From: a virus
IMG/VR virus record: IMGVR_UViG_3300044994_000109
Coordinates: 1 to 34,350 of that record
Length of the DNA stretch: 34,350 nt
Reading direction: 5' to 3' (one strand)
In this document: piece by piece, positions 1-14,197 of the stretch
Layout of the letters: the number at the start of each line of letters is the position of its first letter
Position numbering within the stretch: position 1 is the stretch's first letter
Made by a program: the position numbers and the translations under genes
The notes under the pieces: generated by a model
What the model saw: only the letters and a program-made list of their open reading frames with translations
The model's database searches: none
What the model was told of the DNA's origin: nothing

Positions 1-2
1 GG

Positions 3-52
3 ACGGAACCACCTGCCGAGAATGGGCGGCTGGTGGCGAAGCGTGGTTCCGT
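3..52. repeat. Inverted repeat at left edge of window
   Basis: The 10-base arms at 3-12 (ACGGAACCAC) and 43-52 (GTGGTTCCGT) are perfect reverse complements separated by 30 bases. A weaker inner pair, GCCG at 15-18 and CGGC at 27-30, could fold inside the loop. No gene covers it, and it lies downstream of the leftward operon, so it could be a structured 3' end of that transcript or a protein-binding site. There is no T-run that would make it a classical terminator. Confidence 0.5.
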
Positions 53-99
53 TACCTCTTTGGGTTCGTTGTGTGGCTGTTGGGGCTGCTTGAGGGTGG

Positions 100-243
100 T
101 TTCGGCTGTTTTTCGGCTGTTTTTCGGCTGTTTTTCGACGTTTTTCGACGTTTTTCGAGGTTTTTCGAGGTTTCTAGCCGTTTTTGGCCGTTTTTGGGCC
201 TTTTTGCCGTTTTTGGGGCCGTTTGGGCTGTTTTTCGTGGTTT
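100..243. repeat. Phased T-tract array, predicted curved DNA
   Basis: Fifteen runs of three to five T begin at 100, 109, 120, 131, 141, 151, 161, 171, 181, 191, 201, 210, 222, 231 and 241. The mean spacing is 10.1 bases, close to one helical turn. Between the runs the sequence is G/C (ggc, cgacg, cgagg, ggccg). A-tracts phased with the helix are known to bend DNA in one direction, so this block should be strongly curved. It covers the last codons and stop of the leftward gene at 174-506 and continues about 75 bases past it. Possible roles are a replication or packaging landmark, a binding site for a nucleoid-type protein, or a transcription end. Confidence 0.75.
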
Positions 244-506
244 CTGGGGTCCCGTGGGGTCGTCTCAGCGGGCCACACACCGGGTGGGATCACAACCTCA
301 CGCTCGTCAACCCAGATGTGGCGGCCGTGCTGGGCGATCTTGACGCAACCTTGGGTCGGGCCGATGAACATGAGGCGGGCTGGGGCGTCTCGGTGCTGAA
401 CAACCCACCCGGCTCGAGCAGCATCAAACCTCGTGTCGTAGACGCCGCTCACGTCTGCTGCCCCGAAGCGAGCCTCATCACCGCACCCGCCACATCGGCA
501 CGACAC
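174..506 (-). CDS. Hypothetical protein with N-terminal Cys motif and Lys/Arg-rich tail
   Basis: This is the last gene of the leftward operon, 110 residues with a GTG start at 506. The N-terminus carries a CxCxxC motif (Cys3, Cys5, Cys8), possibly metal binding. The middle reads like a compact beta-rich domain (around VVQHRDAPARLMFIG and WVDEREVVIPPG). The last 25 residues are almost all Lys, Arg, Pro and Gln and are encoded by the phased T-tract array, so their composition may be a by-product of a DNA-level signal. It overlaps the end of the RusA-type gene by 58 bases, which is long; a shorter form starting further in is possible. I do not recognise the family. Confidence 0.55.
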   Translation of the reverse strand: MSCRCGGCGDEARFGAADVSGVYDTRFDAARAGWVVQHRDAPARLMFIGPTQGCVKIAQHGRHIWVDEREVVIPPGVWPAETTPRDPRNHEKQPKRPQKRQKGPKTAKNG

Positions 507-1156
507 AACACCTCATCAACCAACGTCCCCGCCCACACCCACGGCTCAGGCGCCCCCAACAACATCAGCTCGGCAGCCAACCTCTGCTCCACCAGCGCAC
601 GCGCCGACAACCCCTCAACAGGGGCCCCACCAGACGGCACGTCCCCAGCAGACCCGACTCGCTCACCGAGGGCTTGTGTGGTCGATTCACCACCCAGTGA
701 CATCCCCTCGACAGGCGCAGCACGAACCTCACCAGTCGACAACCACGACTCTGCCACCCCCCGGGCCGTCCCATCAACCGGAACCACCCTCACCACCACC
801 CCAGGAGACCGATCCCCACCCCCAACCACCACCAGCACCGGCTCCCCCACCAGCACCCGACCACCATGATCATCATCGAACAACCCCGCATCCACCAACC
901 CATCCACAATCGCCTTCACCGTGGGCATCCAGTTCGACGGATCACGCCGACGCCTCCCCACCACCGCAAACGACACACCAACCTCCCACCTGCCCGACGA
1001 GATCCTCGGAGCCTGCTTCGAGTTGATCGCCTCACGGGCCGCCAACATCGAACGCAACCGCCACATCGACACCAGCTCGGCACGCTGCCGCCAACCCATC
1101 CGATCATTCGCGTTCAACACCACACCCGGAGCATCAAACCCGAACATGAACATCAC
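449..1156 (-). CDS. RusA-like Holliday junction resolvase with C-terminal extension
   Basis: The first 115 or so residues match the RusA family, dimeric metal-dependent nucleases that cut Holliday junctions. Seen here: an N-terminal LNANDRMGW stretch (14-22), a basic run followed by RDPSNWMPTVKAIVDGLVDAG (71-91) and an acidic DDD at 94-96. In E. coli RusA the catalytic acids are Asp70, Asp72 and Asp91; Asp72 and the DDD cluster fit two of these, while the middle position is Ser in a DPxN motif that I believe is common in phage members. E. coli RusA is about 120 residues, but this protein has 235. Residues 116-235 contain two APVEG(M/L)S copies (147 and 178) and a helical end, with no family I recognise. 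GTG at 1156 overlaps the previous stop as GTGA; ATG at 1153 is an alternative. Confidence 0.8.
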   Translation of the reverse strand: MMFMFGFDAPGVVLNANDRMGWRQRAELVSMWRLRSMLAAREAINSKQAPRISSGRWEVGVSFAVVGRRRRDPSNWMPTVKAIVDGLVDAGLFDDDHGGRVLVGEPVLVVVGGGDRSPGVVVRVVPVDGTARGVAESWLSTGEVRAAPVEGMSLGGESTTQALGERVGSAGDVPSGGAPVEGLSARALVEQRLAAELMLLGAPEPWVWAGTLVDEVLCRADVAGAVMRLASGQQT

Positions 1157-1560
1157 AGCTCCACCACCACCGTCTCCACCCCAGCACCCCTCGCCAACCC
1201 CACCATCATCACCGTCCCCTTCGACAACAACAAAGAACCCCTCGTGAACGCAAACACCACATCCGGGTTCCCCTCCTTCAACATCCTACGGTTCCGCACA
1301 AACCCCGCCCGCCGACCATGACGATCCCAGTCGGCAACAAACTCCACCACCTCAACCCCCCTGGAGCGCGCCCACCTAGCCGCCAACCGATCAGCACCCC
1401 GCGCCCCACCACAAATCACCACATCAGGCCGACGCACCATCGACTCCACATCCAGCACAGACCACAACCGCGAACGCTCCCACACCGCACGAGCATCCAA
1501 CACCTCACCCCACACCGCAGCCTCCCCCAACACCCTCGAACCGCACACCAACCACCTCAC
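1153..1560 (-). CDS. SLOG-superfamily DUF2493 (YspA-like) protein
   Basis: This 135-residue protein matches the DUF2493/YspA branch of the SLOG (Rossmann-like) superfamily, whose members are proposed to bind nucleotides or related ligands. Diagnostic segments are the N-terminal WLVCGSR, the central VVICGGARGADRLAARWA and the FVRNRRML helix followed by DVVFAF. I chose GTG at 1560, which overlaps the TGA of the upstream methyltransferase and puts WLVCGSR immediately after the start. A longer open frame reaching 1794 is an antisense-like extension within the methyltransferase gene and I reject it. The stop overlaps the RusA-type start (GTGA). The family is common in phage early regions; its function there is not established. 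Confidence 0.8.
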   Translation of the reverse strand: MRWLVCGSRVLGEAAVWGEVLDARAVWERSRLWSVLDVESMVRRPDVVICGGARGADRLAARWARSRGVEVVEFVADWDRHGRRAGFVRNRRMLKEGNPDVVFAFTRGSLLLSKGTVMMVGLARGAGVETVVVEL

Positions 1561-2162
1561 CACGCCACCTTCTCCAACACCAGCATCGTCGAATAGTTCC
1601 GCCTCGCATGAACCTGCCGCCGCCCCACAGGCTGAGCCCGATACGACACCAGATGCAACATGTCCACCAACCTCGCACCATGCGCCTCGGCGTGACACGA
1701 AAACTCGATCGTCTGCCAACGCACCCGACCCGAACACACCTGATCCTGACACTTCACCAACAACACCCCACCCACATCCAACACCCGCAAACACTCCACG
1801 ATCCCATCACGACACAACCGCATCCGATCCTGCCAGCGCACACTGTTCGCCACCCCATAAGCCGCATCCGGACCATGCGACCCACCAGTCCCGTTCAGCT
1901 TGTACGGCGGGTCGAACACCACATGACGAAACGACCCATCCAGCCACGGCATCGCACAAAAATCCACCGGGTACCCCACCGGGGAGCGCGCCACATCCAG
2001 ATCACTCGCAACAAACACAGCAGGACGCCACAAAGACCAAAACCGACCCAACCCGAACGTCGGATCCAACGTCGCCTCATCCGACAAGTAACCGAGGTCA
2101 CGGCACGCCACAATCAGCTCCGCGTTGCTCCTCCACGGCCCAATCGCCAACACCTCACTCAC
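1557..2162 (-). CDS. DNA methyltransferase, DPPY type
   Basis: This 201-residue protein has the hallmarks of an amino-group DNA methyltransferase. A motif I-like SAM-binding segment, DPTFGLGRFW (about 33-42), is followed by the catalytic DPPY motif at about 84-87. Then come GGVLLVKCQD (motif V region) and a C-terminal YSTMLVLEK strand. DPPY is typical of N6-adenine enzymes, though N4-cytosine is possible. Such phage orphan methyltransferases usually protect viral DNA from host restriction or mark it; I see no partner nuclease nearby. The start is GTG at 2162, overlapping the upstream small gene by 8 bases. Confidence 0.82.
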   Translation of the reverse strand: MSEVLAIGPWRSNAELIVACRDLGYLSDEATLDPTFGLGRFWSLWRPAVFVASDLDVARSPVGYPVDFCAMPWLDGSFRHVVFDPPYKLNGTGGSHGPDAAYGVANSVRWQDRMRLCRDGIVECLRVLDVGGVLLVKCQDQVCSGRVRWQTIEFSCHAEAHGARLVDMLHLVSYRAQPVGRRQVHARRNYSTMLVLEKVAW

Positions 2163-2322
2163 CCATCCACCTCCCCCGCTTCAACACATTCCGCTTCTGC
2201 TGCCGAGGAACATACGGCCTGCCGCGCATCAACCTGCACGGCTCACACCCCGCATCACACTCCACAGGCCCATCACCCCACACATCACCCACCGTGCAAC
2301 CCAGCCGACAAACACACACCAT
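2155..2322 (-). CDS. Small cysteine-rich hypothetical protein
   Basis: A 55-residue frame fills the otherwise empty gap between the exonuclease and methyltransferase genes. It contains VCVCRLGC near the start, then CDAGCEPCRLMRGRP and a basic end (RQQKRNVLKRGRW). The spaced cysteines suggest a small zinc-binding fold. ATG at 2322 lies 20 bases after the exonuclease stop, and the end overlaps the next start by 8 bases, like its neighbours. A competing frame beginning at 2345 lacks this Cys pattern. Family unknown. Confidence 0.55.
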   Translation of the reverse strand: MVCVCRLGCTVGDVWGDGPVECDAGCEPCRLMRGRPYVPRQQKRNVLKRGRWMGE

Positions 2323-2341
2323 CCCCGCCAGGCGATCCCAA

Positions 2342-2905
2342 TCATCCAAACCCACCAACCTCCAACCCGTACACCCACGCAAACAAACCCACCACATCCA
2401 TCATGTCCCCCAACGCCGTGTGCGCCCCATGAGCAGACCGCTCCACCCCAGCCGCCTCCATCACCTTCCGCAAAGTGAACGGCGGCAACAACCCCAGCTT
2501 CGCCGCCGCCAAAGCCTCCACATCAACCAGGTGGTAGTGCGGGCACAACACAAACCCATACCGCAAACAGAACCAATGCAGCACCCGCTCATCGAACTCC
2601 GGCACCGCACCAACCCACACCCTCCCCGCCGACGCGACCGCGATCTCCTCCGCAACCTGACGATTCAAATCATCAGACAACTCGTGCCGATACGGCAGCC
2701 ACCGCTCATACATCGCGTTCACACGAAGCGAGTTCGGATCAGCAGACACCAACTCGGACTCCGACACACACAACAACTCCACCCGCGGCTCATCCAACAT
2801 CAACCCGCTATCCTCAACCGTCGCCGTCACCCACGCCACCTCCCACGGAGGCGCGTTACGTGCCAACGACAACGTTTCGGTGTCACAAAAAAACAGCTCC
2901 AACAT
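2342..2905 (-). CDS. DnaQ-like 3'-5' exonuclease (DEDDh type)
   Basis: This 187-residue protein fits the RNase H-fold DEDD exonucleases. The ExoI motif is FFCDTETL (Asp8, Glu10). An ExoII-like segment, VGAVPEFDERVL, carries the central Asp near residue 104. The ExoIII motif HGAHTALGDMMDV supplies the His and Asp of the DEDDh type. Such proteins trim or proofread DNA and are common in phage early operons. I chose the ATG at 2905, which shares its A with the TGA of the upstream RHH gene (TGATG); the longer frame upstream is the RHH gene in another phase. Confidence 0.85.
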   Translation of the reverse strand: MLELFFCDTETLSLARNAPPWEVAWVTATVEDSGLMLDEPRVELLCVSESELVSADPNSLRVNAMYERWLPYRHELSDDLNRQVAEEIAVASAGRVWVGAVPEFDERVLHWFCLRYGFVLCPHYHLVDVEALAAAKLGLLPPFTLRKVMEAAGVERSAHGAHTALGDMMDVVGLFAWVYGLEVGGFG

Positions 2906-3063
2906 CACCCATCCCCCCTCATCTGATCCTCGTACATCGCGGCACGAATCAGGTTCCGCACCCACGCGTTCATTGACAACCCCGCCTCCCTAGCGCGCCG
3001 CTCCACAAACTCCCGCTCATGAATCGACACCGCCAACGCGATCTGAGTCGTGTTACGAGCCAT
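2905..3063 (-). CDS. Ribbon-helix-helix (Arc/CopG-like) DNA-binding protein
   Basis: This 52-residue protein has the RHH layout. A short strand (TTQIALAVS, 5-13) is followed by two helices (HEREFVERRAREAGLS and MNAWVRNLIRAAM). The SMNAWVRNLI segment resembles the Arc-type second helix. RHH proteins dimerise and place the strand pair in the major groove to repress promoters. The ATG at 3063 shares a base with the stop of the preceding gene, and the stop at 2905 shares a base with the exonuclease start. It is the third RHH-type protein within 1 kb and may autoregulate the operon. Confidence 0.78.
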   Translation of the reverse strand: MARNTTQIALAVSIHEREFVERRAREAGLSMNAWVRNLIRAAMYEDQMRGDG

Positions 3064-3236
3064 CACGACCCCAACTTCGACGCAAGCCAACGCATATCAG
3101 CCTCCAACTGCATCTGATCACCGGCGTAATGAGCGGTGCGGCGCATGTGCTCCAACAACCGCCACGCCAACGGGCGCTCCAACATGATCGGACCCGGCGT
3201 GTCCGCATCCTGGTCGTACAGCTTCACCTTGCCCAT
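3063..3236 (-). CDS. Small hypothetical protein (57 residues)
   Basis: The leftward frame between two TGATG junctions encodes 57 residues beginning MGKVKLYDQDADTPG. It contains RPLAWRLLEHMRRTAHYAGD and ends in ADMRWLASKLGS, so it is likely mostly helical. Both the start (ATG 3236) and the stop (3063-3065) share bases with neighbours, which supports translation. I do not recognise the family. Confidence 0.65.
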   Translation of the reverse strand: MGKVKLYDQDADTPGPIMLERPLAWRLLEHMRRTAHYAGDQMQLEADMRWLASKLGS

Positions 3237-3427
3237 CACTTCCCCTTCGTGAAGATCATCGCCAACAGCGCACGGTGATAGTCGCTCAACATCTCATCCG
3301 CCACCTGATCCGACACGTTCAGGTCGCGCAGCAGCGCCTGATAGCCGGCCAGCAGGTTCACCAACGAGATGTTCAGATCCATCAAGCTCATCAACGCCGA
3401 CTTCACATCATCACCCAAACCATCCAT
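3236..3427 (-). CDS. Small helical hypothetical protein, first gene of leftward operon
   Basis: This encodes 63 residues and is predicted to be largely helical (VKSALMSLMDLNISLVNLL, then DQVADEMLSDYHRALLAMI). I place the start at ATG 3427 rather than ATG 3439, because the -10 box of the likely promoter (TATGGT, 3440-3435) covers the upstream ATG. Initiation 7-8 bases later would give a leaderless message beginning at 3427. As the first gene of the operon next to the operator, it may be regulatory, but it has no DNA-binding motif I can name. Confidence 0.65.
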   Translation of the reverse strand: MDGLGDDVKSALMSLMDLNISLVNLLAGYQALLRDLNVSDQVADEMLSDYHRALLAMIFTKGK

Positions 3428-3434
3428 ATCGCAT

Positions 3435-3463
3435 ACCATACCGTATTCCTGTTAGGTTCACAA
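3435..3463 (-). promoter_or_regulatory. Probable promoter of the leftward operon
   Basis: Reading leftward, TTGTGA (3463-3458) and TATGGT (3440-3435) are separated by exactly 17 bases, matching four of six positions in both sigma-70 boxes. The expected transcription start falls on or beside the A of ATG 3427. The -35 box lies within the inverted repeat 3448-3486, so a bound repressor would block it. Confidence 0.6.
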
Positions 3464-3486
3464 CCTGTAGCACTTCACCTAACAGG
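3448..3486. promoter_or_regulatory. Operator-like inverted repeat in divergent promoter region
   Basis: Perfect 10-base arms CCTGTTAGGT (3448-3457) and ACCTAACAGG (3477-3486) flank a 19-base centre. A nested pair AGGTT/AACCT (3454-3458, 3462-3466) lies inside the left half. It sits between the leftward operon and the rightward RHH gene at 3506, covering the -35 of the former. The layout suits binding of dimeric or tetrameric RHH proteins controlling both directions. Confidence 0.65.
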
Positions 3487-3505
3487 GCCACTACCCTCGC
3501 AACCC

Positions 3506-3673
3506 ATGAACGGTCGCCCGATCTCGTTCTGGCTGCACCAGCACGAACTCGACTACCTCACCCAGCTCGCCAACGCTCGAGGTGTCAGCAGAAACCGTGC
3601 GCTGCGCGACCTGATCGAGCAAGCCCGTCAGTCCGACTGCGAAGCCTCCAGCCGCAACGACACCAGCTCTTGA
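3506..3673 (+). CDS. Ribbon-helix-helix DNA-binding protein
   Basis: This 55-residue protein has a strand (RPISFWLHQ, 4-12) followed by helices (HELDYLTQLANARG; SRNRALRDLIEQAR), the compact RHH repressor layout. ATG 3506 lies 20 bases after the inverted repeat at 3448-3486, its probable operator. TACCCT at 3492-3497 could be a -10 box, giving a message with almost no leader. It is divergent from the leftward operon, so it is a candidate switch repressor. Its last 46 bases overlap the convergent RHH gene at 3628-3858. Confidence 0.72.
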   Translation: MNGRPISFWLHQHELDYLTQLANARGVSRNRALRDLIEQARQSDCEASSRNDTSS

Positions 3674-3858
3674 ACCACCGGCTGCCCAAGAACCCACCGG
3701 ATCGCCTCACCCCAGGTGCGGTTGGGCATCGTGTCCCGCAACGCCAACAGCTGCACATGCTCCTCGGCTGTCACCCTGAACGCCACGGTGTGAGAGAGCC
3801 GACCCGACTCTGGCACCAGCTTCCAACCAGGCGGGACCGCATACGGAAGATCGGTCAT
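3628..3858 (-). CDS. RHH-like regulatory protein
   Basis: In this 76-residue protein an N-terminal arm (YAVPPGWKLVPESGRL) leads to HTVAFRVTAEEHVQLLALRD and TWGEAIRWVLGQPVV, consistent with a strand plus two helices of the RHH type. ATG 3858 lies directly after a -10 box (TACAGT, 3870-3865) with a 6-base gap, implying a leaderless message. The palindrome at 3878-3896 covers its -35 region, so autorepression is likely. It runs toward the rightward RHH gene at 3506 and the two overlap by 46 bases at their 3' ends. Confidence 0.68.
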   Translation of the reverse strand: MTDLPYAVPPGWKLVPESGRLSHTVAFRVTAEEHVQLLALRDTMPNRTWGEAIRWVLGQPVVQELVSLRLEASQSD

Positions 3859-3864
3859 GCACCA

Positions 3865-3896
3865 ACTGTAGACGGCGCGCTTGCGCCGCGCAAGCG
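3865..3896 (-). promoter_or_regulatory. Leaderless promoter with overlapping 19-bp palindrome
   Basis: Reading leftward, TTGCGC (3893-3888) and TACAGT (3870-3865) are 17 bases apart, and ATG 3858 follows 6 bases after the -10. The perfect 9+1+9 palindrome centred on 3887 (3878-3896) covers the -35 and half the spacer. A dimeric repressor here would exclude RNA polymerase. Confidence 0.62.
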
Positions 3897-3944
3897 GGCC
3901 TGTTTACATGTGTTTGGGCTCGGGGACGGCTGAGGCCCCCAGCC

Positions 3945-3974
3945 TTGACGACCAGGGGCCTCCGAAGCCATGAT
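3945..3974 (+). promoter_or_regulatory. Possible promoter of the rightward replication module
   Basis: TTGACG (3945-3950) and CATGAT (3969-3974) are 18 bases apart, upstream of the small gene at 4033 and the initiator gene. That gene has a strong ribosome site (AAGGAAAGG) ending 4 bases before its ATG, so this transcript would have a leader of about 50 bases. Support is the motif match only. Confidence 0.4.
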
Positions 3975-4032
3975 GGGACGAGCCAACGACCCGAAGGGGA
4001 GCATACCCCCTCGGCCAAGGAAAGGAAAGCCA

Positions 4033-4170
4033 ATGATGGGAACTTGTTGGTGCGGCCAACCCGCCGCCTACTACCAGCCAACCACTCGAGCCGTCGCCTG
4101 CAACCAGCACGCCGCCTTGCTCGCCCCGTTCGTCGTGTGGGTGCCAGTGGAGGTTCGGCGTGAGCGTTGA
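4033..4170 (+). CDS. Small putative zinc-finger protein (45 residues)
   Basis: The ATG at 4033 follows a strong Shine-Dalgarno sequence (AAGGAAAGG), which decides the start over upstream ATGs. The protein begins MMGTCWCGQPAAYY and continues ACNQHAALLAPF; Cys5, Cys7, Cys24 and His27 form a plausible CxC...CxxH metal site. The end overlaps the initiator start by 11 bases. Proteins of this type are common ahead of phage replication genes; the role is unknown. Confidence 0.6.
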   Translation: MMGTCWCGQPAAYYQPTTRAVACNQHAALLAPFVVWVPVEVRRER

Positions 4171-4861
4171 ATCCATCTCCACCGTGCTCAACACCCCCAC
4201 ACCGGACCTGACACCGACGCAGCGTCTCATCCTCGTCGGGATCGCCAACCACGACGGCGACGGTGGCGCATGGCCATCCATGGCGACACTCGCCAGGTAC
4301 GCCGGGGTCACCGTCCGGGCCGCACAGAAAGCCGTAGCCACCCTCGTCGAGTGCGGGTACATCACCCGCCACATCCAAGACGGCGGCACCCGGAGCACCC
4401 CCGATCATCTCCGCCCCAACCGCTACGAACTGCACCTGACCCCCCGTCCCACAGGACACCCCTCCCCCGTCCCACAGGACACCCCCCCCCTGTCCCACAG
4501 GACACCCGAACCATCCATAGAACCGTCCATGGAACAAAACCCCCCTCTAGTCCCCCCAAGGGGGGACGTTGAGCAGGACGGGTTTGACGCGTTCTGGTCT
4601 GCATACCCGCGCAAAGTGTCCAAGGCTCCAGCCCGGAGGAAGTGGGCAAGGATGACCAGCAGCGAACGTCAGGCTGCTCTCCAAGCGCTCCCGGCTCACA
4701 TCGAGGCATGGAAAACGCGAGGCGACATCCAGTTCGTCCCCCACCCAGCGACATGGCTGTCGCAGCGCAGATGGGAAGATGAGATGATCGTTCGATCAGC
4801 ACCCACAAAAGCAGCCAGATCACTCGACGTGATCCGACGTTTCTCTCAAGGCGAGCTGTGA
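4160..4861 (+). CDS. Phage replication initiator-like protein (winged helix N-terminus)
   Basis: In this 233-residue protein residues 15-90 look like a winged-helix/HTH domain: TPTQRLILVGIANHDGDGG, then WPSMATLARYAGVTVRAAQKA with a recognition-helix pattern and LVECGYITR. A Pro-rich linker (95-140) leads to a C-terminal module (142-220) with FWSAYPRKVSKAPARRKW and FVPHPATWLSQRRWED, the signature seen in phage O/DnaD-like initiators. GTG 4160 has GGAGG six bases upstream. The linker is encoded by DNA carrying three 23-bp iterons, so the origin probably lies inside this gene, as in lambda O. The helicase-loader-like gene follows immediately. Confidence 0.78.
   Translation: MSVESISTVLNTPTPDLTPTQRLILVGIANHDGDGGAWPSMATLARYAGVTVRAAQKAVATLVECGYITRHIQDGGTRSTPDHLRPNRYELHLTPRPTGHPSPVPQDTPPLSHRTPEPSIEPSMEQNPPLVPPRGDVEQDGFDAFWSAYPRKVSKAPARRKWARMTSSERQAALQALPAHIEAWKTRGDIQFVPHPATWLSQRRWEDEMIVRSAPTKAARSLDVIRRFSQGEL
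4442..4510. repeat. Three 23-bp iterons, candidate replication origin
   Basis: Three contiguous 23-base units (4442-4464, 4465-4487, 4488-4510) share the core TCCCACAGGACACCC at 4447, 4470 and 4493, each containing the dyad GTCC-caca-GGAC. Because 23 is not a multiple of three, each copy is read in a different frame and gives different peptides (RPTGHPS, VPQDTPP, LSHRTPE). The conservation is therefore in the DNA, not the protein. A 12-base direct repeat (4508-4519, 4520-4531) and a dyad at 4550-4567 follow. This is the architecture of an initiator-binding origin. Confidence 0.72.
4550..4567. repeat. G/C-rich dyad next to the iterons
   Basis: GTCCCCCC (4550-4557) and GGGGGGAC (4560-4567) are perfect 8-base arms around AA. 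It lies 40 bases past the last iteron, within the initiator gene, and could be part of the origin or an RNA hairpin. Confidence 0.5.
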
Positions 4862-5250
4862 TGACACGGGAAGAAGTTGCCTCGTTCCTCGCGGCGATGC
4901 ACGGCGCCTGGCCAAACACCGAAGTCGACGAAGCCGTCGCCTACGTCTGGGGTGAAGCACTCCGCTACATCGACTACGACGAAGGGCTCTCGGTGCTGAC
5001 CGACCTGATCAACACCAAGGTCATGTTCCCAACCGTCGCCGACTTCAACGCGGCGCTGTCCCAGCACAGGATCACCCAACGCCGTCGCGCTGAGATGGAC
5101 CACCGTCAAGTCGCAGAAGGGCACACCACCCCACCTTCACGCGGTGTCGCCATAGCCATCGAGGCATACAAGGATGAGTGCCGCCGCCAGGGTCGCGAAC
5201 CAAGCAGCGAGATCTTCAGTCGCTGGCTCGCAGTGACATCCACCGAATGA
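4861..5250 (+). CDS. Replicative helicase loader/inhibitor-like protein
   Basis: The N-terminal half of this 129-residue protein (TREEVASFLAAMHGAWPNTE, then WGEALRYIDYDEGLSVLTDLI and FPTVADFNAAL) resembles the phage G39P family, small helical proteins that bind the replicative helicase. The C-terminal third is basic and flexible. ATG 4861 shares its A with the initiator's TGA (TGATG). Position directly after the initiator fits a loader. Its last 35 bases overlap the convergent gene at 5216-5725. The helicase itself is not in this window. Confidence 0.7.
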   Translation: MTREEVASFLAAMHGAWPNTEVDEAVAYVWGEALRYIDYDEGLSVLTDLINTKVMFPTVADFNAALSQHRITQRRRAEMDHRQVAEGHTTPPSRGVAIAIEAYKDECRRQGREPSSEIFSRWLAVTSTE

Positions 5251-5725
5251 GCGCCGCCCACACCATCGGGTCGATGTCGTTCGGGTCGCAGTCCATCAGA
5301 GCGCCCGCTTGCAGATCGGCAGATGTGTACCTCACAGACACCACCGCACGCCGCTTCGTCCTCGCCAACCTTCTCGCCTGTTCGATCGTCATAGACGGGT
5401 TGATCACACCCGACTCGACACCCTCAAGCAGCTCTTCACGGTTCAGCGCACGCAACGCGAACAGCGCCTGCCACGGTTTCGGCAACCTGGCCAGCGTCTC
5501 CGCTGGGAGTTCGCGGTAGGCGAGGTAGATCGCGATGAGCCGTCTGGCTGTGTCGACCGAGAACGGCAGCTCGTTGGTCACCCACGCGTTGAAACCGTCC
5601 GGGTCGGTCGAGCGGGCCTCGAACAACAGGCCACCGACCGTGAGCACCATGCCGTCGATCGCCGAATAGATGCGATCCCGGTAGTAGCTCAGGTCGTGGC
5701 TAGGTTTCACCACATGGAGAGCCAC
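5216..5725 (-). CDS. DUF3102-like phage protein
   Basis: This leftward gene of 169 residues stands alone between rightward genes. The segment DGFNAWVTNELPFSVDTARRLIAIYLAYRELP (about 43-74) resembles the DUF3102 pattern of phage proteins (glycine, Trp, then fS..TA..). A basic helix, IEQARRLARTKRRAV, follows, so DNA binding is possible. The start is probably GTG 5725; a TACGGT box at 5738-5733 lies 7 bases upstream, suggesting a leaderless message. GTG at 5710 would remove the 12-base overlap with the divergent gene. The 3' end overlaps the loader-like gene. Function unknown. Confidence 0.65.
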   Translation of the reverse strand: MALHVVKPSHDLSYYRDRIYSAIDGMVLTVGGLLFEARSTDPDGFNAWVTNELPFSVDTARRLIAIYLAYRELPAETLARLPKPWQALFALRALNREELLEGVESGVINPSMTIEQARRLARTKRRAVVSVRYTSADLQAGALMDCDPNDIDPMVWAALIRWMSLRASD

Positions 5726-6190
5726 AACATCGACCGTATCAGCGTGTTCGGCTACGAGCTGTGCTCAGTCTGCCAAACACCTGTCGTCATGGAGGTGTCA
5801 GCGCGCACAGGCGGGCGGTGCACGAAGTGTTGGGCAAGCACAACTGTCGACAGGACCAAAGTGCTTGAGGTTGTCGGGCTCGGCCGCCGCGCACGGGTCA
5901 CGGTTGGGGCGTCCACGGCGAAGAAAGACAAGCCGCCGGCGAACACCAAGAAACTCGCGGAGCGATGCAAGCACAAGGCGCTGCGACGGTTGCGGGCGCT
6001 GTTCCCTGACCTGTACGACGTGCTGCTCGCAGAAGAGCGCGCCAAGCACGGGCTTGAGCCGTGGCCGATCGAACGCGCAGCCGTCACCACAGACGGCCTT
6101 GACGCAGAGGCGACCTTGGCGTTCGCTGAGGTCTACCATGCGCTGAGCGAACGAGGAGTTGATGTGGATGGCCTTGTCGCAGGCACCTGA
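5714..6190 (+). CDS. Hypothetical protein with N-terminal zinc ribbon
   Basis: This 158-residue protein has cysteine pairs CSVC (about 16-19) and CTKC (35-38), likely a zinc ribbon. A basic linker follows, then a helical stretch (KHKALRRLRALFPDLYDVLLAEERAKHG) of a kind I associate with actinophage hypothetical proteins. It directly precedes the portal gene and overlaps it. A terminase small subunit is conceivable from position alone, but nothing in the sequence shows it. ATG 5714 lies 7 bases after TAGGTT (5701-5706), a possible -10 box for a leaderless message. The longer upstream frame is antisense to the DUF3102-like gene. Confidence 0.65.
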   Translation: MESHNIDRISVFGYELCSVCQTPVVMEVSARTGGRCTKCWASTTVDRTKVLEVVGLGRRARVTVGASTAKKDKPPANTKKLAERCKHKALRRLRALFPDLYDVLLAEERAKHGLEPWPIERAAVTTDGLDAEATLAFAEVYHALSERGVDVDGLVAGT

Positions 6191-7712
6191 ACTTCACAAC
6201 ATCGTGCGGTTTATCCCGCCAGGCAGCCACGCGCCCGCCACGTCGGAGGTGTTCGCCGCGGTCGGACTCGAGCTGAGGTACAAGCCAGATCGCGACTATC
6301 TCGCCGACACCCACGCTGCTTCGCTGGTCAACAGCAGGGAACCGTGGAAATGGTACGAGAAGATCGGCGAGGTGTCGTACGCGATCGCCCGATCAGCCCG
6401 CATCGCCGGCTACGCCAAACTCCAAGTCCGCAAACGCAACCCTGACGGCACCGCCGGCGACCTCGTTGATGACGAACGAGCCCAGGCTGCGTTGGGGCGC
6501 ATCTACTCCCCCTACGGCGGGCTGCGCGGCTTGATCGAGCGGTATTACACGCTCCGCAAGGTTCCAGCCGACATGCACCTGATCCGATGCCGCAACAACG
6601 CCGGCCAACCTGACGGGTACATGGTGCTGTCATGCGACGAGATGGACCTGACCCAGCTTGACAAGGGGATCATCAAGTGGTGGACCACCCCGAAGCCGTC
6701 ATCGTCGTCGCGAGGACGCCCACATCACGTCGTGCAGATCGACGACTACTTGGGCAGGCTGTGGACGCCATCGTCGCGTTGGATCGACCTGCCTGATTCT
6801 CGGCTCAACACACTCGACACCGAGTGCTTCTTGCTCTATGAGCTGACCGAATCGCTCAAGTCAAAAGTGCTGTCGCGCTTCGCCATGTCCGGTCTCATGT
6901 TCCTCCCATCTGAGATCAATGACGTGAGGGTGTCGAACGCTCGAGGTGAATCACGCCAGGACAGGTTCATGGATGTGCTCGCCGAAGCGATGGCGAGGAA
7001 CGTCGCCGCTCGCGACGACGCCTCGGCCCGTATCCCGATCATCGTCAGGGGTCCAGGCGCTGCTGGTCAGCAGATCAGGTTCATCACCATCGACTCCGAG
7101 CTGTGGGAAACCGACATCAAACTGCGAGCAGAACTGATTGATCGCATCCTTCAAGGGCTTGATGTGCAGCACCAGGCTGTCATGGGTGTCGGCGACACGA
7201 ACCACTGGGCGGCATGGGCTGTCTCCGACGAGGAACGTCGCATCACCGTCCAACCTGACATCGAAGCGATGTGTTGGGGGTTTGAGCGGTTGATTTTCAA
7301 CCGCGAGCTGCTCGCCGCAGGTGTCCCCGAGTCCAAGGTGTCCAGCTGGATGCTGTGGTACGACCTCAGCGGTGCTGCTGTCAAGACCAACCAGCAGGAG
7401 GACGTTCGCCAACTTTATGACCGTGGCGAGGTGAACGGAGCGGTGCTGCGACGCGTCTCTGGTGCGCTCGACAGCGAAGCGATGGATGAGCGTGAACGTA
7501 TCCGTTGGGTCGGTGTGAAGATGCTCGATCCCTACCTCGCCCTGTATGGCACCGAGGAGGACATCGACTGGTCCAAGGTCGGTGCAGGGCGCCGCCGTCC
7601 GGGCCCGATCGGCCCAATCGCAGATGAACCCAATGTCGGGCCGGGTGTAGGCAACCCTGGCTCACCAGACGACAACGAGACGGACACCCCAAGGTCCGAA
7701 CGGCCCGCATAG
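6168..7712 (+). CDS. Portal protein
   Basis: This protein of about 514 residues forms the ring through which DNA enters and leaves the head. It carries an actinophage-type portal pattern: an early WKWYEKIGEVSYAIARSARI segment, a mixed central domain, a long helical region around LLYELTESLKSKVLSRFAMSG and the QAVMGVGDTNHWAAWAVSDEE segment near the C-terminal third. The tail ends in a Pro/Gly-rich disordered stretch. ATG 6168 is nine bases after GAGGAG (6153-6158); ATG 6162 is closer than usual. The capsid protease gene follows after 9 bases. The terminase normally found just upstream is absent. Confidence 0.82.
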   Translation: MALSQAPELHNIVRFIPPGSHAPATSEVFAAVGLELRYKPDRDYLADTHAASLVNSREPWKWYEKIGEVSYAIARSARIAGYAKLQVRKRNPDGTAGDLVDDERAQAALGRIYSPYGGLRGLIERYYTLRKVPADMHLIRCRNNAGQPDGYMVLSCDEMDLTQLDKGIIKWWTTPKPSSSSRGRPHHVVQIDDYLGRLWTPSSRWIDLPDSRLNTLDTECFLLYELTESLKSKVLSRFAMSGLMFLPSEINDVRVSNARGESRQDRFMDVLAEAMARNVAARDDASARIPIIVRGPGAAGQQIRFITIDSELWETDIKLRAELIDRILQGLDVQHQAVMGVGDTNHWAAWAVSDEERRITVQPDIEAMCWGFERLIFNRELLAAGVPESKVSSWMLWYDLSGAAVKTNQQEDVRQLYDRGEVNGAVLRRVSGALDSEAMDERERIRWVGVKMLDPYLALYGTEEDIDWSKVGAGRRRPGPIGPIADEPNVGPGVGNPGSPDDNETDTPRSERPA

Positions 7713-7721
7713 GAGGCGGAC

Positions 7722-8951
7722 ATGGCAATGCGAATCCAGTACGGCAAGCGCCCCAAGAAACAGGACGGCTTCTACAAGCCTGTGTCGTTCCCGAACATGG
7801 CGACACTCGACAAGTGGACCAGCGATGGCCGCATGATCGAATCTGCCGGGTTCGGCACCCGCGACCTACCGCAACCGATCCGGTTGCAGTACGCCGACAA
7901 CGGCGGGCACTCCGGCTCTGTCCCGGTTGGTGCGCTGCACGAGCTGTCAGTCAACGAAGATGGCGTCCTGTCGGGCGCCGGATGGCTGATCGACACCGAC
8001 GACGGGCGCATGGCGGCGTTCCTGTTGCATACGCAAGCCCTGCGTGGGAACTCGATCGAACTCGCCGATGTTGTCGCTGACATCGACCTCACCGAGGACT
8101 TTGATCTGCGGATCAGGTTCACTGAAGCCAACTTCGCTGGCACCTGCCTTGTGGGCAGGCCGGCGTTCGGTGACGCTTTCGCTGAACTCGACGACGACGA
8201 GATCACCGCAGCGTTGGCAGATGTCGATGAGATCGTCGCCGATGTGTCGTTCACACCGACGTTGCTCGCTGTCCAACCCGACGAGATCGTCGCGTCAGGG
8301 TTGGTGCAGCCGTGGGCTGATTTCCACATTCCGGAAGCCGACCGGCCGACAAAGGTGATCGTCGACGAGGAAGGTCGCGTGTTCGGTCATCTCGCGCTGT
8401 GGGATTCATGCCATGACGGGGTGGAAGGCCAGTGTCTGGTTGTGCCCCGCCCGACCGACAACTATGCGTCGTTCAACAAGCCTGGCGTGTTGACCGAGCT
8501 TGGCATCGTCGAGACCGGCCCCATCTTCCTCACTGGTGGGCATCCACGCAAGCGTCTCGGTGACAGCGACCCGGTGTCTGCGTATGGCGGCATTGAGAAC
8601 GCGTGGGCTGATGTTCGTGTTATCCCAGGACGGTTCGGCCCGTGGCTCTCTGGTCGTGTGCGCCCTGGCGTGTCCGACGATCAGGTGTATGCCGCTCGAG
8701 CGTCCAGAGTTTCTGGCCATTGGGTGAGAGGCCGGTTGAAGGCGATCGTGTCGGTGAACGCGGAAGGATACGACGTTCCTGGCAGCGGCTTCTCTGTTCG
8801 CACCGAAGGGGATCAGGTGACCGAGTTGGTTGCTTCCTTCCCGCCGTGCGCTAATGAAGCGGAAACGCCAGAGAGCCCTGTAAGCAACGATGTTTTGCTT
8901 GAAACGCGTCGTGACGTTCTGCGTCTGCAACTCGACATGCTCGATGGATAA
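7722..8951 (+). CDS. Capsid maturation (prohead) protease, two-part
   Basis: In this 409-residue protein the N-terminal half fits the U35/HK97-type prohead serine protease: HSGSVPVG (His63) and ALRGNSIELADV (Ser111) supply the expected His and Ser. The C-terminal half (200-390) has the GHLALWDSCHDGV segment and the RPGVSDDQVYAARASRVSGHW region seen in the larger actinophage capsid proteases. The enzyme would cleave scaffold and capsid arms during head assembly. A strong ribosome site (AGGAGG) precedes ATG 7722. The fused arm of the next gene's product is its likely substrate. Confidence 0.82.
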   Translation: MAMRIQYGKRPKKQDGFYKPVSFPNMATLDKWTSDGRMIESAGFGTRDLPQPIRLQYADNGGHSGSVPVGALHELSVNEDGVLSGAGWLIDTDDGRMAAFLLHTQALRGNSIELADVVADIDLTEDFDLRIRFTEANFAGTCLVGRPAFGDAFAELDDDEITAALADVDEIVADVSFTPTLLAVQPDEIVASGLVQPWADFHIPEADRPTKVIVDEEGRVFGHLALWDSCHDGVEGQCLVVPRPTDNYASFNKPGVLTELGIVETGPIFLTGGHPRKRLGDSDPVSAYGGIENAWADVRVIPGRFGPWLSGRVRPGVSDDQVYAARASRVSGHWVRGRLKAIVSVNAEGYDVPGSGFSVRTEGDQVTELVASFPPCANEAETPESPVSNDVLLETRRDVLRLQLDMLDG

Positions 8952-8954
8952 CTG

Positions 8955-8985
8955 TTGACCTTGCTAGGTAAACAAAGTCCATGAT
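8955..8985 (+). promoter_or_regulatory. Possible promoter for the major capsid gene
   Basis: TTGACC (8955-8960) and CATGAT (8980-8985) are 19 bases apart in the only real gap between the protease and capsid genes. A GTTGAC/GTCAAC inverted pair (8954-8959, 8987-8992) brackets it. The boxes resemble those at 3945-3974, but the spacing is long, so this is weak. Confidence 0.3.
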
Positions 8986-9020
8986 TGTCAACCAGAAGGC
9001 CAGACACCCAGGAGGCGGCT

Positions 9021-10688
9021 ATGTGGCCCGAAATCCCAAGTGACATCAACGCCTTGAGCGCTGCGGAGCTTCGCGCTCTCGCCAAGGCGATCAAGGCGAC
9101 TGCGAAGGAGCGCCTGGAAGGACAGCTCAGCGAGGAGTCGCTGGCCGAGGTTCGCTCCAAAGTTGACGAAGCCAAGAGGCTGCTCGCTGCGGCCGACGCT
9201 CGCGACGCTGCCGAAGCCGAACGCGCCGCTCTGCTCGCAGAGGTTGCCGAGCCCGAGGCTGAACCCGACCCTGAGCCAGAGGCCGAGGCCGAGGCTGAGG
9301 CCGAGGCTGAGGCTGAGGCTGAGCCCGAGGCGGCTGAACTTTCGACCACCACCCCCACCACGGAGGCACCCGAAGTGACTGCGAACAGCACGCCCCCTCC
9401 CACCTCGCTCGCCCCGGCGCCTAAGGTGGAACCCCAGGGCTTCACCCCATCAAAGCTGCTTGCCCGCGATGGCGTGGCTGGGAAGCGGGCCGGCGAGGAG
9501 TTCACATCGTGGACAGAACTTGCCGCCGCCGTCATGGAGAAGGCAGCCAGCCTGCGGCACAACACCTCCGAGAAGTTCGAGGTCGCCTACATCCCCGCCC
9601 GCTTCCCTGAGGGCTCACAGCTCACCGCGGACCCGCTGTTCAACCTGCGGCTGTTCGAGTACGACGAGATCCGTGCCGAGATGTGCGCCCCACCCATCCC
9701 CCTGTACGACCTGGCGTGCGAGAACACGCTGCGCCGGCCGGTGAAGGCGTCGTTGCGACCCTTCCAGCCCGATCAGCGTGGAGCGGTGTCGGTGTACCCG
9801 TCACCGAGCCTCAGTGACATCACCACCGGCTTCGGCCAGTGGACCAACACCCAAGACTCGAACCCCAACGCCGTGAAGGAGGCGTGCCAGACCATCGAGT
9901 GCGCCACCCCTGAGGTGTACCGCCTCTACGGCGTGTACCGATGCCTCACGGTGAAGAACCTGCTCGCGATGACGTTCCCAGAGCTGGTTGAGGCGTATCT
10001 GAACCGGCTCGGCGCCGCTCACGCCCGTCTCGGTGAGACGCTGCTGCTCGAGGGCATGGCGAACGGTGCGAACACGGTTGTTGCCCCGTCGCTCGGCTAC
10101 AACGCCACCACCACGGTCACGTCAACGATCCTCAACTACCTGGCTCTCTACCAGGAGCAGCAGCGGTGGGATTTGCCTGGCTTGATGCGCGCCTGGTTGC
10201 CACGGTGGGTGCTGCTGGCGATGAAGATGGATGTGATCCGCCGTCGTCGCACCGATGGGAACCCGGTGTCGGTTCCGAGCGACGAGCAGATCGTGACGAT
10301 GTTCCGCAACGTCGGTGTGGAGCCGACGTTCTTCATCGACACCCCGTCGTGGGCCACCCCGGTCCCGGCTGTCGCCACTGGCGGTTCGTTGAACTTGCTC
10401 CCCACGTCGGTGGAGATCTTGATCGCCCCGCCCGACAAGTTCGCTGTGATGGATCGCGGTGAGCTGGCGATCGGCGTCACCGGGAACAACATCTACCGCG
10501 ACAACCAGTCGAACGCCCGCAACGAGTTCACGTTCTTCTTCGAGAACTTCGAGGCGCCGATCGACACCACTTCCTGCCCGGCTGACATCCTTGAGATCCC
10601 CGGCCTCTGCTGGAACGGTGTCCAGATCGACGACGTGGTGATCAACTGCGAAGGCGGCGACTACCTTGGGGTCGGCTCAGGCGCCTGA
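9021..10688 (+). CDS. Major capsid protein with fused scaffold-like N-terminal arm
   Basis: The product has 555 residues. Residues 1-75 are charged and helical, probably a coiled-coil scaffold or delta domain. Residues 76-107 are an acidic Glu-Pro/Glu-Ala repeat, 108-140 a Thr/Pro linker, and 140-555 the predicted HK97-fold capsid domain with a long central helix (FPELVEAYLNRLGAAHARLGETLLLEG) and a capsid-like C-terminal region. ATG 9021 follows AGGAGG at five bases; an upstream TTG in the same frame has no such site. Fusion means each subunit carries its own scaffold, expected to be removed by the protease encoded upstream. A stable hairpin follows the stop. Confidence 0.82.
   Translation: MWPEIPSDINALSAAELRALAKAIKATAKERLEGQLSEESLAEVRSKVDEAKRLLAAADARDAAEAERAALLAEVAEPEAEPDPEPEAEAEAEAEAEAEAEPEAAELSTTTPTTEAPEVTANSTPPPTSLAPAPKVEPQGFTPSKLLARDGVAGKRAGEEFTSWTELAAAVMEKAASLRHNTSEKFEVAYIPARFPEGSQLTADPLFNLRLFEYDEIRAEMCAPPIPLYDLACENTLRRPVKASLRPFQPDQRGAVSVYPSPSLSDITTGFGQWTNTQDSNPNAVKEACQTIECATPEVYRLYGVYRCLTVKNLLAMTFPELVEAYLNRLGAAHARLGETLLLEGMANGANTVVAPSLGYNATTTVTSTILNYLALYQEQQRWDLPGLMRAWLPRWVLLAMKMDVIRRRRTDGNPVSVPSDEQIVTMFRNVGVEPTFFIDTPSWATPVPAVATGGSLNLLPTSVEILIAPPDKFAVMDRGELAIGVTGNNIYRDNQSNARNEFTFFFENFEAPIDTTSCPADILEIPGLCWNGVQIDDVVINCEGGDYLGVGSGA
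9246..9341 (+). repeat. GAG-GCY tandem repeat encoding the Glu-Ala tract
   Basis: About 16 near-identical six-base units (GAG followed by GCC, GCT or CCC) encode the acidic EPEAEA stretch of the capsid scaffold arm. Such simple repeats tend to change length between relatives by slippage. Confidence 0.75.
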
Positions 10689-10714
10689 CCCCTAGTCGGA
10701 ACAACAACTCCACG

Positions 10715-10748
10715 GAGGGGGATGGCCTACACTCGGGCCATCCCCCTC
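10715..10748 (+). terminator. Hairpin after the major capsid gene
   Basis: Perfect 13-base arms GAGGGGGATGGCC (10715-10727) and GGCCATCCCCCTC (10736-10748) close an 8-base loop. It starts 26 bases after the capsid stop and ends 26 bases before the next start. There is no U-tract, so it may be a partial terminator or an RNA-stabilising stem that raises capsid expression over downstream genes. Confidence 0.72.
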
Positions 10749-10774
10749 ATAGGTTCTCACGGTAAGGAGCGCAC

Positions 10775-11653
10775 ATGGCGACAGGTCTCGAGGTTGAGGT
10801 GAAGATCCCGACGCCGGCGACTCGCCCTGTTGGCCTGTTGACGCAGACCGCTCAAAGGATCCCCAACGACCAGTTGTCGGTGGCGGGTGTCAACCGCATC
10901 GGTGCGGGGGTGAGTTTCGTCCCGTGGGGTTGTGACCCGTTGACGGGCGTGGCTGCGGAGCTGTGTGACGACCAGGACCGCCCGGTCGGCTCCCTGCCCG
11001 AGTGGTTGACGCAACCTTCGTTCACTGTTGTCGACGGGTTGTCGTGCTCGACGCTGTGGGGTGTCGACGACATGCTCGACGAGCGTGTGCTGTCCAGGCT
11101 CAGGACCAGGGTGTCATCGGTGTTCGGCAGAGAACTGATCGACGGGGCCCTGTCGGGCGGCATCTCTCTCGCGTCGCAAGCTGTTGTGCTGTCGGCGACC
11201 GCTGGCTCTGTGCAGCAGCAGCTCTACCATCTCGAGGGGTTCCTCGCTGACACGCTTCGTGGCGAGCAGGGGATGATCCACGTTCCACCGGAGATCCTGC
11301 ATCTTCTGGTGAACACGGCGGGTTTCATGATCACCGATGGGGTCGTGTTGACACCAACGGGCCACATCGTCGTCGCCGACGCCGGCTACTCCACGTTCAT
11401 CGGCGACATCTCCCCCAATGGGCAGTCGGCGGGGCCTGGCGAGTTCTGGATCTACGCGTCCGGCCCGGTACTGTGGGCGGCGACAGACCCAACTCTGGTT
11501 GCGGGCAGGGACCACACCACGATTGACACGACCAGGAACGCGAGAGAGCGTCTCGGTGAGCTTCTCGGGTTGGTGTTGTTCGATCCGTGCTCGGTGGCCG
11601 CGGTGAAGGTTGATCTGTCTCCTGCTGGTGGTGTCGACGGCGGAGGCTCCTGA
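10775..11653 (+). CDS. Putative virion protein between capsid and fibre genes
   Basis: This 292-residue product begins MATGLEVEVKIPTPATR after a good ribosome site (AAGGAG). It has a central part with SVQQQLYHLEGFLADTLRGE and GMIHVPPEILHLLVNTAG, then TPTGHIVVADAGYSTFIGDISPNG and FWIYASGPVLWAA. I recall similar patterns in actinophage proteins encoded beside the capsid gene, but their exact role is not something I can assign. It could be a minor capsid, decoration or fibre-anchoring protein. The stop overlaps the fibre start (TGATG), implying coupled translation. Confidence 0.6.
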   Translation: MATGLEVEVKIPTPATRPVGLLTQTAQRIPNDQLSVAGVNRIGAGVSFVPWGCDPLTGVAAELCDDQDRPVGSLPEWLTQPSFTVVDGLSCSTLWGVDDMLDERVLSRLRTRVSSVFGRELIDGALSGGISLASQAVVLSATAGSVQQQLYHLEGFLADTLRGEQGMIHVPPEILHLLVNTAGFMITDGVVLTPTGHIVVADAGYSTFIGDISPNGQSAGPGEFWIYASGPVLWAATDPTLVAGRDHTTIDTTRNARERLGELLGLVLFDPCSVAAVKVDLSPAGGVDGGGS

Positions 11654-13137
11654 TGGTGTTGCCTCCGAATCGTCGTGACATGATCAAGGTGCGCGGTTGG
11701 ACCGCCGCTGAATGGTCATTCACCAACCCTGTGCTCGCCGCTCGCGAACCCGGTTACGCAGTTGATACCGGTGTGCTGAAGATAGGTGACGGGGTGACCC
11801 CATGGAACTCGCTGCCGGCGATCAACAGTGGCGGTGGTTCTGGGTGGCCGCTGACGCAAGATGTGTCTGGCGACGGGTATGGGATCAGTGATCTGTCGTC
11901 GCTGGATGTCGTGTTCAGGGTGTCGGAGGACGGCACAACTGACATCAACACTGGTGGCGGTGGCGTCGCCTGTGGGAGACTGAACGTGTCCGGTGGTGGT
12001 TCCGGTGAGTTTCAGGTGGGTTCCGGCGGACTGGTTGCGGGTGATGTTGTCTCGTCTGGCGCAGGCTCATCGTCTGAGATTCGAGCATTCTCGGCTGGTT
12101 CATCAACCGGTCGCGCGCAATCCACCAATAGTGGATCCGCAAAGCTGGAAGCAGTTGTCGGCTTCTCTGCGGGACTGGCTCAAGCGGGTGGCATTGGTTC
12201 GACAGCTTTCATCAAAGCCGATTCCGGTTCTGTTGTTGGCGGATATGCCAATGCAACCAACGGTGGTGTAGCGCATATCTACGCCGACCAGCCAGGCGGT
12301 GCGTTTGGCCAGTGTTTCGCCAACAGCGGTTCGGCTGCTGTTTATAACAGCTGCGACGGGGGTTTAGCAACCGGGTATTCATACAGTGGCGCTGGTGGCT
12401 CCACGTCGGTCAAATCGCTTGGTAAGGGATCGTTCGCAAATGGGTATGGGTACAGCGTTGGTGGGATCGCCACAGTCAACGCGGTCTCTTTGGGGACGTT
12501 CGCAACCGGGTACGCGTGCGGCACCAACGGCGGTTTTGGGTCCGTGGAAGCATCCACCTCGGGGTCATCAGCGTTCGGGTATGCGTACGGCTACGGCTCC
12601 AGTATTGTGGCACTTAAGGCGGTTGCGCCTGGGTCGTCAGTGTCTGGGTGTGCGTATGGCATTGATGGTGTTGTTGTGTTTCAAGCATCAGGCGCGGGTT
12701 CTTCGGCGTTTGGGTGTGCTTTCAGTTACAATGGGAACACGACAATCGACTCGTCTGGCTACGGCAGTTTCGCTTTCGGTTACACGTACGCTTACGGCAA
12801 TGGGTCTGCGATAGTGGAATCGTCCGGTCCGGGGGCGTTCGCTGGTGGTGCGGCACAGTCAAACTCCACCTTCTCTCAGATCGAAGCATCCGGTTTGGGC
12901 TCGTTTGCTTTCGGGAGCGCAGACGAAGGTGAATCGATCCTTGCTCAACAGACCAACGCAGTCCAGTTCGGCCCTGGGGTGAACAACCGCGCTGACTCAC
13001 TGAAGGTTGGTGACGGTGGCTTGTGGTTGATGGGGAAGGCAGGAACTCCCCCTTCGCCCACGAACGGGATGATATGGGTTGACGGTTCAGGCAACGTTGT
13101 CATCCATTCCGGCGGCGTCTCGGTCGTCATCGCATGA
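11653..13137 (+). CDS. Repeat-rich fibre/adhesin with Mtd_N-like N-terminus
   Basis: In this 494-residue protein residues 12-57 (WTAAEWSFTNPVLAAREPGY, then KIGDGVTPWNSLP) match the Mtd N-terminal domain that anchors phage receptor-binding proteins. Residues 100-425 consist of about 14 repeats of 21-23 residues with the consensus GxGSxAxGYAYxxxGxxxVxAS, rich in Gly, Ser and Tyr, likely a beta-roll or beta-helix like YadA/Hia stalks. The C-terminus is a short beta segment. The gene lies in the head region rather than at the tail tip, so it may be a head fibre. Its stop overlaps the sulfotransferase start (ATGA). Confidence 0.78.
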   Translation: MVLPPNRRDMIKVRGWTAAEWSFTNPVLAAREPGYAVDTGVLKIGDGVTPWNSLPAINSGGGSGWPLTQDVSGDGYGISDLSSLDVVFRVSEDGTTDINTGGGGVACGRLNVSGGGSGEFQVGSGGLVAGDVVSSGAGSSSEIRAFSAGSSTGRAQSTNSGSAKLEAVVGFSAGLAQAGGIGSTAFIKADSGSVVGGYANATNGGVAHIYADQPGGAFGQCFANSGSAAVYNSCDGGLATGYSYSGAGGSTSVKSLGKGSFANGYGYSVGGIATVNAVSLGTFATGYACGTNGGFGSVEASTSGSSAFGYAYGYGSSIVALKAVAPGSSVSGCAYGIDGVVVFQASGAGSSAFGCAFSYNGNTTIDSSGYGSFAFGYTYAYGNGSAIVESSGPGAFAGGAAQSNSTFSQIEASGLGSFAFGSADEGESILAQQTNAVQFGPGVNNRADSLKVGDGGLWLMGKAGTPPSPTNGMIWVDGSGNVVIHSGGVSVVIA

Positions 13138-13925: not shown

Positions 13926-13936
13926 GAGGACTGAAC

Positions 13937-14197
13937 ATGGCAAAGCAGAAGGATTCACCGAATCGCGACGTGGCGGCGAAGATCGCTGCGCTTGACCCGG
14001 ACAAGGCGGAGAAGGTCGCGAACTTCATCGAACGGCTGCAAGCAATCGACAACAATCGACAGGAGATCCTTACCTCCTCTGAGGTGTCCGCTGCGTACGA
14101 GGCGCTCGACGACATGGGCAAGCAGCGCATCACTCGAATACTGGCGATGGAACGTGGCCGTGTGGAGCGTCAGCAAGAGCGCGAGCAGGGATTTTGA
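13937..14197 (+). CDS. Small hypothetical protein inside the sulfation module
   Basis: This 86-residue protein is highly charged and predicted to be helical throughout (PDKAEKVANFIERLQAID, EVSAAYEALDDMGKQRITRIL, ERGRVERQQERE). It begins at ATG 13937 after a GAGAGGA ribosome site, 11 bases past the sulfotransferase. I recognise no family. Lying between the sulfotransferase and cysD, it may be an accessory factor or an unrelated virion component. Confidence 0.65.
   Translation: MAKQKDSPNRDVAAKIAALDPDKAEKVANFIERLQAIDNNRQEILTSSEVSAAYEALDDMGKQRITRILAMERGRVERQQEREQGF

Follow-up and report, generated by a model that had tools for sequence, protein, structure and literature searches.

A diverged tandem repeat of 15 phased T-runs with a strong predicted curve at the 3′ end of a leftward operon in an uncultured virus

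Bent DNA has been described at sites where phage genomes are packaged or organized. In lambda cosB, A-tracts spaced at 10–11 bp intervals in I1 and I2 bend the phage DNA in packaging (PMC4856287), while at the pac site of SPP1/SF6, weak DNA-binding domains arranged in a ring select intrinsically bent DNA (PMC4737164). In phi29, protein p6 organizes a segment of the phage genome by helically phased bending in a nucleoprotein complex, in which the DNA follows a right-handed superhelix on a protein scaffold (PMC10899789). Outside phages, bacterial 10-bp T5 minisatellites combine T5 with five G/C-rich bases and are mostly intergenic. Here, we analyzed an array of 15 phased T-runs, which has the T5 plus G/C-rich unit of these minisatellites, the 10–11 bp tract spacing of lambda cosB, and a predicted bend in common with SPP1/SF6 pac. 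It differs from lambda cosB, where few tracts cause bends of ~28–34 degrees, in having 15 tracts and no visible cos site or small terminase; similarly, a terminase gene or cleavage site as in SPP1/SF6 and a protein resembling p6 were not identified in the sequence analyzed. As phased A-tract DNA, the array is of a known kind; its length is unusual for a phage. The bends described so far at phage packaging sites are short. A-tract periodicity, and with it curvature-related periodicity, is reported to be generally absent from phage genomes (PMC3431218), which makes the array an exception.

The window, i.e., the whole stretch of DNA analyzed, is an entire linear virus record (34,350 bases, 61% G+C) and represents part of the genome of an uncultured virus. 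Its best protein relatives are from actinobacteriophages with ~25% identity, and the host is probably an actinobacterium. The rightward genes encode portal, major head, tail, tape-measure, and minor tail proteins. Because no terminase was found among the window genes scanned, the record is probably incomplete at its left end. We note that genes for PAPS-reductase-like, elongation factor-like, and glycosyltransferase/methyltransferase proteins lie between the head and connector/tail genes (14207–18489) and that GAG/GCT-type tandem repeats are present within the major head protein gene (9246–9331). The features relevant to the array are listed in Table 1.

Table 1. Array of T-runs and surrounding features (window coordinates)
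Feature	Position	Strand	Remarks
Flank between window end and array	1–99	none	G/T-rich on +; without recognizable gene
Array of 15 phased T-runs	100–243	none	Diverged 10–11 bp tandem repeat; T5 + ~5 G/C-rich bases on +
11-bp units TTTTTCGGCTG	100–130	+	Nearly exact copies, recent duplication
Sub-blocks TTTTTCGACG x2 and TTTTTCGAGG x2	131–170	+	10 bp
Diverged units	171–243	+	G/C-rich spacers (GGCC, GGGCC, GCCG, GGGGCCG, others)
Last leftward ORF	174–506	-	110-aa orphan; stop at 174 inside array; possible N-terminal zinc knuckle
Leftward operon upstream of array	449–2965	-	Extreme G/T-rich sense strand; whole operon including ORF 174–506 is 174–2965
RusA-like resolvase	449–1156	-	
SLOG/YAcAr protein (SLOG-like)	1153–1794	-	
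DNA methyltransferase	1557–2162	-	
Small ORF	2155–2397	-	
Exonuclease	2342–2965	-	
Replication initiator	4160–4861		Gene in window
Portal protein	6159–7712	+	PHROG 776, E 2.3e-64; anchor for synteny comparison

Each of the 15 T-runs is either T3 or T5, and their centers are 9–11 bp apart with a mean spacing (slope) of 10.07 bp and a residual standard deviation of 0.65 bp; the periodicity of the T signal peaks at 10.1 bp. In 20,000 dinucleotide shuffles of bases 1–300, the longest chain of T-runs comprised 8 runs and was reached 3 times, while the longest chain elsewhere in the window is 2. The array thus has the A/T runs of 3–6 near the helical repeat over several turns that characterize curved DNA. 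TRF independently flagged head-to-tail copies, as in a minisatellite, with a period of 11 at 100–157 and a period of 10 at 108–214. The phase resultant was 0.92 at 10.1 bp and 0.46 at 10.5 bp. The first-pass annotation, which was made from the sequence alone, had reported fifteen T-tracts at 10 bp with a spacing more regular than coding constraint would give, and both points were borne out by the shuffles and by the codon statistics described below. Permuting the order of the intervals gave equally good phasing (fraction, 0.43), which does not support active maintenance of phase; rather, the regularity needs only a unit length close to 10.

Adjacent units are often identical (CGGCTG repeated, CGACG twice, and CGAGG twice), which speaks for local duplication. 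When all spacers are compared, their mean identity is 0.40, approximately the value expected from composition, and 10 of the 14 are distinct. After removal of duplicates, T columns 4–5 matched the consensus in 18/22 cells versus 25/44 for the spacer columns; with a P value of 0.057, this borderline difference is suggestive, but not proof, of constraint on the T-runs. The observation that the spacers diverged while the T-tracts stayed suggests that recognition, if any, would be of shape and not of sequence.

Using a dinucleotide wedge model with Bolshoy/Shpigelman parameters, we obtained a ratio of end-to-end distance to contour length of 0.43–0.59 over the array compared to a window mean of 0.967 (standard deviation, 0.036). 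All of the eight 154-bp segments with the highest curvature overlap the array, which in this model is the most curved stretch of the window, with a predicted curvature far above background. In a planar vector sum, for which we assumed 18 degrees per T5 and 9 degrees per T3, the A-tracts add up to ~117 degrees at 10.5 bp per turn and to 216 degrees at 10.1 bp per turn. Both calculations agree with the strong bend predicted in the first-pass annotation, and the array should form a strong static curve. Because the spacing is slightly short for a planar bend, the modeled path would be superhelical. Based on these data and on the location of the array, we tentatively favor, at a level somewhat short of even, the interpretation that it is a functional curved boundary or docking element that was born by duplication at the 3′ end of the leftward operon. 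Several observations count against a functional curve. The period of 10.07 bp falls short of 10.5 bp, which halves the planar bend, permuted intervals phase equally well, and the comparison of T columns with spacer columns is no more than borderline.

The array overlaps the last leftward ORF, whose C-terminal end, HEKQPKRPQKRQKGPKTAKNG, is rich in Lys, Arg, Pro, and Gln and is encoded by the array. The 110-aa protein had no family match, and its core was without relatives in our searches. All Lys codons in the tail are AAA (6/6), while the other leftward genes use AAG only (AAG, 9/9; AAA, 0/9) and AAA accounts for 60/217 overall. In addition, the array continues for 74 bp past the stop codon. 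The exclusive use of AAA together with the extension of the array beyond the stop codon argues that constraint acts at the DNA level. The Lys/Arg tail is a by-product of the DNA, as had been suggested when the tail was described as dictated by the T-tracts. The converse, that selection maintains the basic tail and the DNA pattern follows, has in its favor that the tail resembles nucleic acid-binding tails; we consider it extremely improbable and largely refuted because half of the array (100–173) lies beyond the stop codon. A 10-bp period also shifts the reading frame with each unit.

At the level of gene order, the array lies at the 3′ end of the leftward operon, in agreement with the initial placement at an operon end. 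Across 300–3000, the operon has a GC skew of −0.3 to −0.6 and an AT skew of +0.2 to +0.47 on the + strand, and this pattern is absent from the rightward genes; the sign of the skew flips near base 260. In Mycobacterium phage Yahalom, a terminase gene on the + strand is followed by leftward RuvC-like genes and a portal gene on the + strand. Similarly, in 29 related loci with both genes, the terminase gene is rightward and 0.6–5.2 kb upstream of the portal gene, with leftward ORFs in between in most of them. This synteny of terminase, leftward ORFs, and portal suggests that the array is probably located where two convergent operons meet, i.e., the leftward operon and a rightward terminase side. 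Only 99 bp of the window lie to the left of the array (bases 1–99), and they are all that is visible of the side on which relatives carry the terminase gene. Within them, the periodicity of the array had no significant extension (993/1,000 shuffles were as strong), no known gene end was identified, and a terminase C-terminus was rejected since there was no match in any frame. A terminase gene to the left, for which the first-pass annotation had proposed to look, is plausible from the synteny in the 29 relatives, but no terminase fragment was recognizable in bases 1–99.

A terminase gene to the left, which is probable from gene order, would also fit a role of the array as a pac-like site at which packaging starts and which the small terminase subunit wraps. 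Bent DNA is recognized at the pac and cos sites described above, and the portal relatives include mycobacteriophages from a cluster with circularly permuted genomes. Nevertheless, a pac-like role appears very unlikely to us. A pac site should be conserved in relatives that share the packaging genes, but the array was found in none of the examined flanks of ~80 distant portal relatives, in which the longest chain of T-runs is 3; relatives with the same synteny are among those lacking it, and no terminase gene was found in the window itself. Judged by the genome organization of SPP1, P22, and lambda, the array would moreover be located downstream of the large terminase gene and not at the gene for the small subunit. 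The absence of the array near the portal genes of these ~80 relatives likewise weighs against the favored functional curve.

The convergent layout in relatives is equally expected if the array were a termination zone between converging operons. In that case, the leftward RNA would contain a C/A-rich, G-poor Rho-loading (rut-like) tract, and the rightward RNA would have U-runs following G/C stems. In terms of composition, the RNA after the last leftward gene is C-rich and G-poor as in a rut site: the C/G ratio of the leftward strand rises from an operon mean of 0.41 to 1.8 at the end and to 2.7 in the best 78-nt windows, and YC dinucleotides occur every ~10–11 nt over part of the array. Three terminator-like sites are present on the + strand at 79–130, a number not above that in local shuffles (1.8 ± 1.3), which does not support an intrinsic terminator. 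RNA folding gave z scores of only −1.9 (+ strand) and −2.7 (− strand), long-range RNA pairing of the spacers had a weak z score, and an Rfam search of 1–6200 returned no matches. Moreover, a rut site needs no helical phasing of T5. We regard a termination zone as distinctly unlikely.

To what extent similar arrays exist elsewhere bears on the question of whether any function is needed. A search with a three-tract pattern identified 33 viral stretches of mixed kinds, and a search of a cellular genome collection with a four-tract pattern identified 24 stretches with comparable 10-bp T5 arrays, which are distributed over many unrelated phyla. Of the latter, 18 are intergenic compared to ~6 expected, with no consistent neighboring gene and no consistent rule for orientation relative to genes. 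These scattered cellular and viral matches suggest that similar arrays arise sporadically. By this reasoning, the array could be a minisatellite without function that arose when an intergenic T5-G/C unit was duplicated by slippage, with the helical phasing as a chance outcome of a unit length of 10–11 bp. The adjacent identical sub-blocks, which would reflect ongoing duplication, the random order of intervals, and the absence from relatives fit this possibility, as does a contig from the same virus that is interrupted within the array in the manner expected for a repeat. On the other hand, the bacterial T5 minisatellites (e.g., L222, L235, and L236) and most other long arrays in public genomes, including cellular arrays of similar length, are mostly near-exact copies (spacer identity, 0.8–1.0), whereas in the window array the spacers have diverged to composition-level identity while the T-runs remain exactly T5 or T3; the array also sits exactly at an operon end. 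On balance, we view a minisatellite without function as a serious possibility that is only slightly less probable than the favored curved element. Independently of function, the array is real, rare, lineage specific, and duplication born. Matches of enterobacterial prophage-like sequences to TTTTTCG repeats (L098 and L099) were rejected as unrelated.

The contig in question, IMGVR_UViG_3300044993_000223, is the sole close record. It has a length of 13,897 bp and is identical to window positions 215–14111. Its start within the array is suggestive of either a break of the assembly at the repeat or copy number variation. Searches for close relatives using the RusA-like protein, the replication initiator, the portal protein, and the core of the 110-aa protein identified only this contig and distant relatives, and a search by exact pattern for a leftward extension of the window was negative. 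A candidate relative (L239) was rejected as a chance match in a tail protein. The start of the contig at 215 and the end of the window 99 bp left of the array are what a collapsed or chimeric repeat near a contig end might produce; yet many units are mutually different and the contig independently confirms 215–243, the only array bases backed in this manner, and an assembly artifact is hardly credible.

Returning to the favored boundary or docking element, we suggest that repeated duplication of a 10–11 bp unit of T5 and ~5 G/C-rich bases built the curved segment, at which the leftward DNA metabolism operon would very probably meet rightward transcription from the terminase side. The curve itself would be the feature in use: the array may separate the converging transcription units and/or be wrapped by a shape-recognizing protein, candidates being a host protein of the HU/Lsr2 type or a phage protein, and the basic tail of the 110-aa protein would have come along with the DNA. 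The full version of this proposal, namely that the 15 T-tracts serve the phage as a boundary or docking site encoded in DNA shape, either between converging operons or in packaging, and are recognized by shape and not sequence, we rate as unlikely. If it has a function, the 15-tract array would offer a readily testable example in which a boundary in a phage genome is marked by DNA shape and not by sequence. If the array is no more than a minisatellite, it illustrates how a protein can acquire a basic tail that a short repeat forces on it.

The array does not resemble iterons, i.e., identical protein-binding repeats near an initiator gene, as its spacers differ. Better candidates are present inside the replication initiator gene, where three 23-bp direct repeats (93% match) followed by 12-bp repeats at 4440–4535 form a candidate lambda O-like origin with iterons. 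Among the sequences recovered in the pattern searches, two viral contigs contain an 11-bp T6 array beside a DnaA box-like TTATCAAC (L111, 2097–2121 in T-strand orientation; L130, 10619–10643), and four viral contigs (L110, L115, L122, and L126) have in common a block of three copies of CACGGTTTTT with near-identical flanks. In a planctomycete sequence (L222) and a Crocinitomicaceae assembly (L233), long exact or near-exact 10-bp T5 arrays are located near the start of the sequence.
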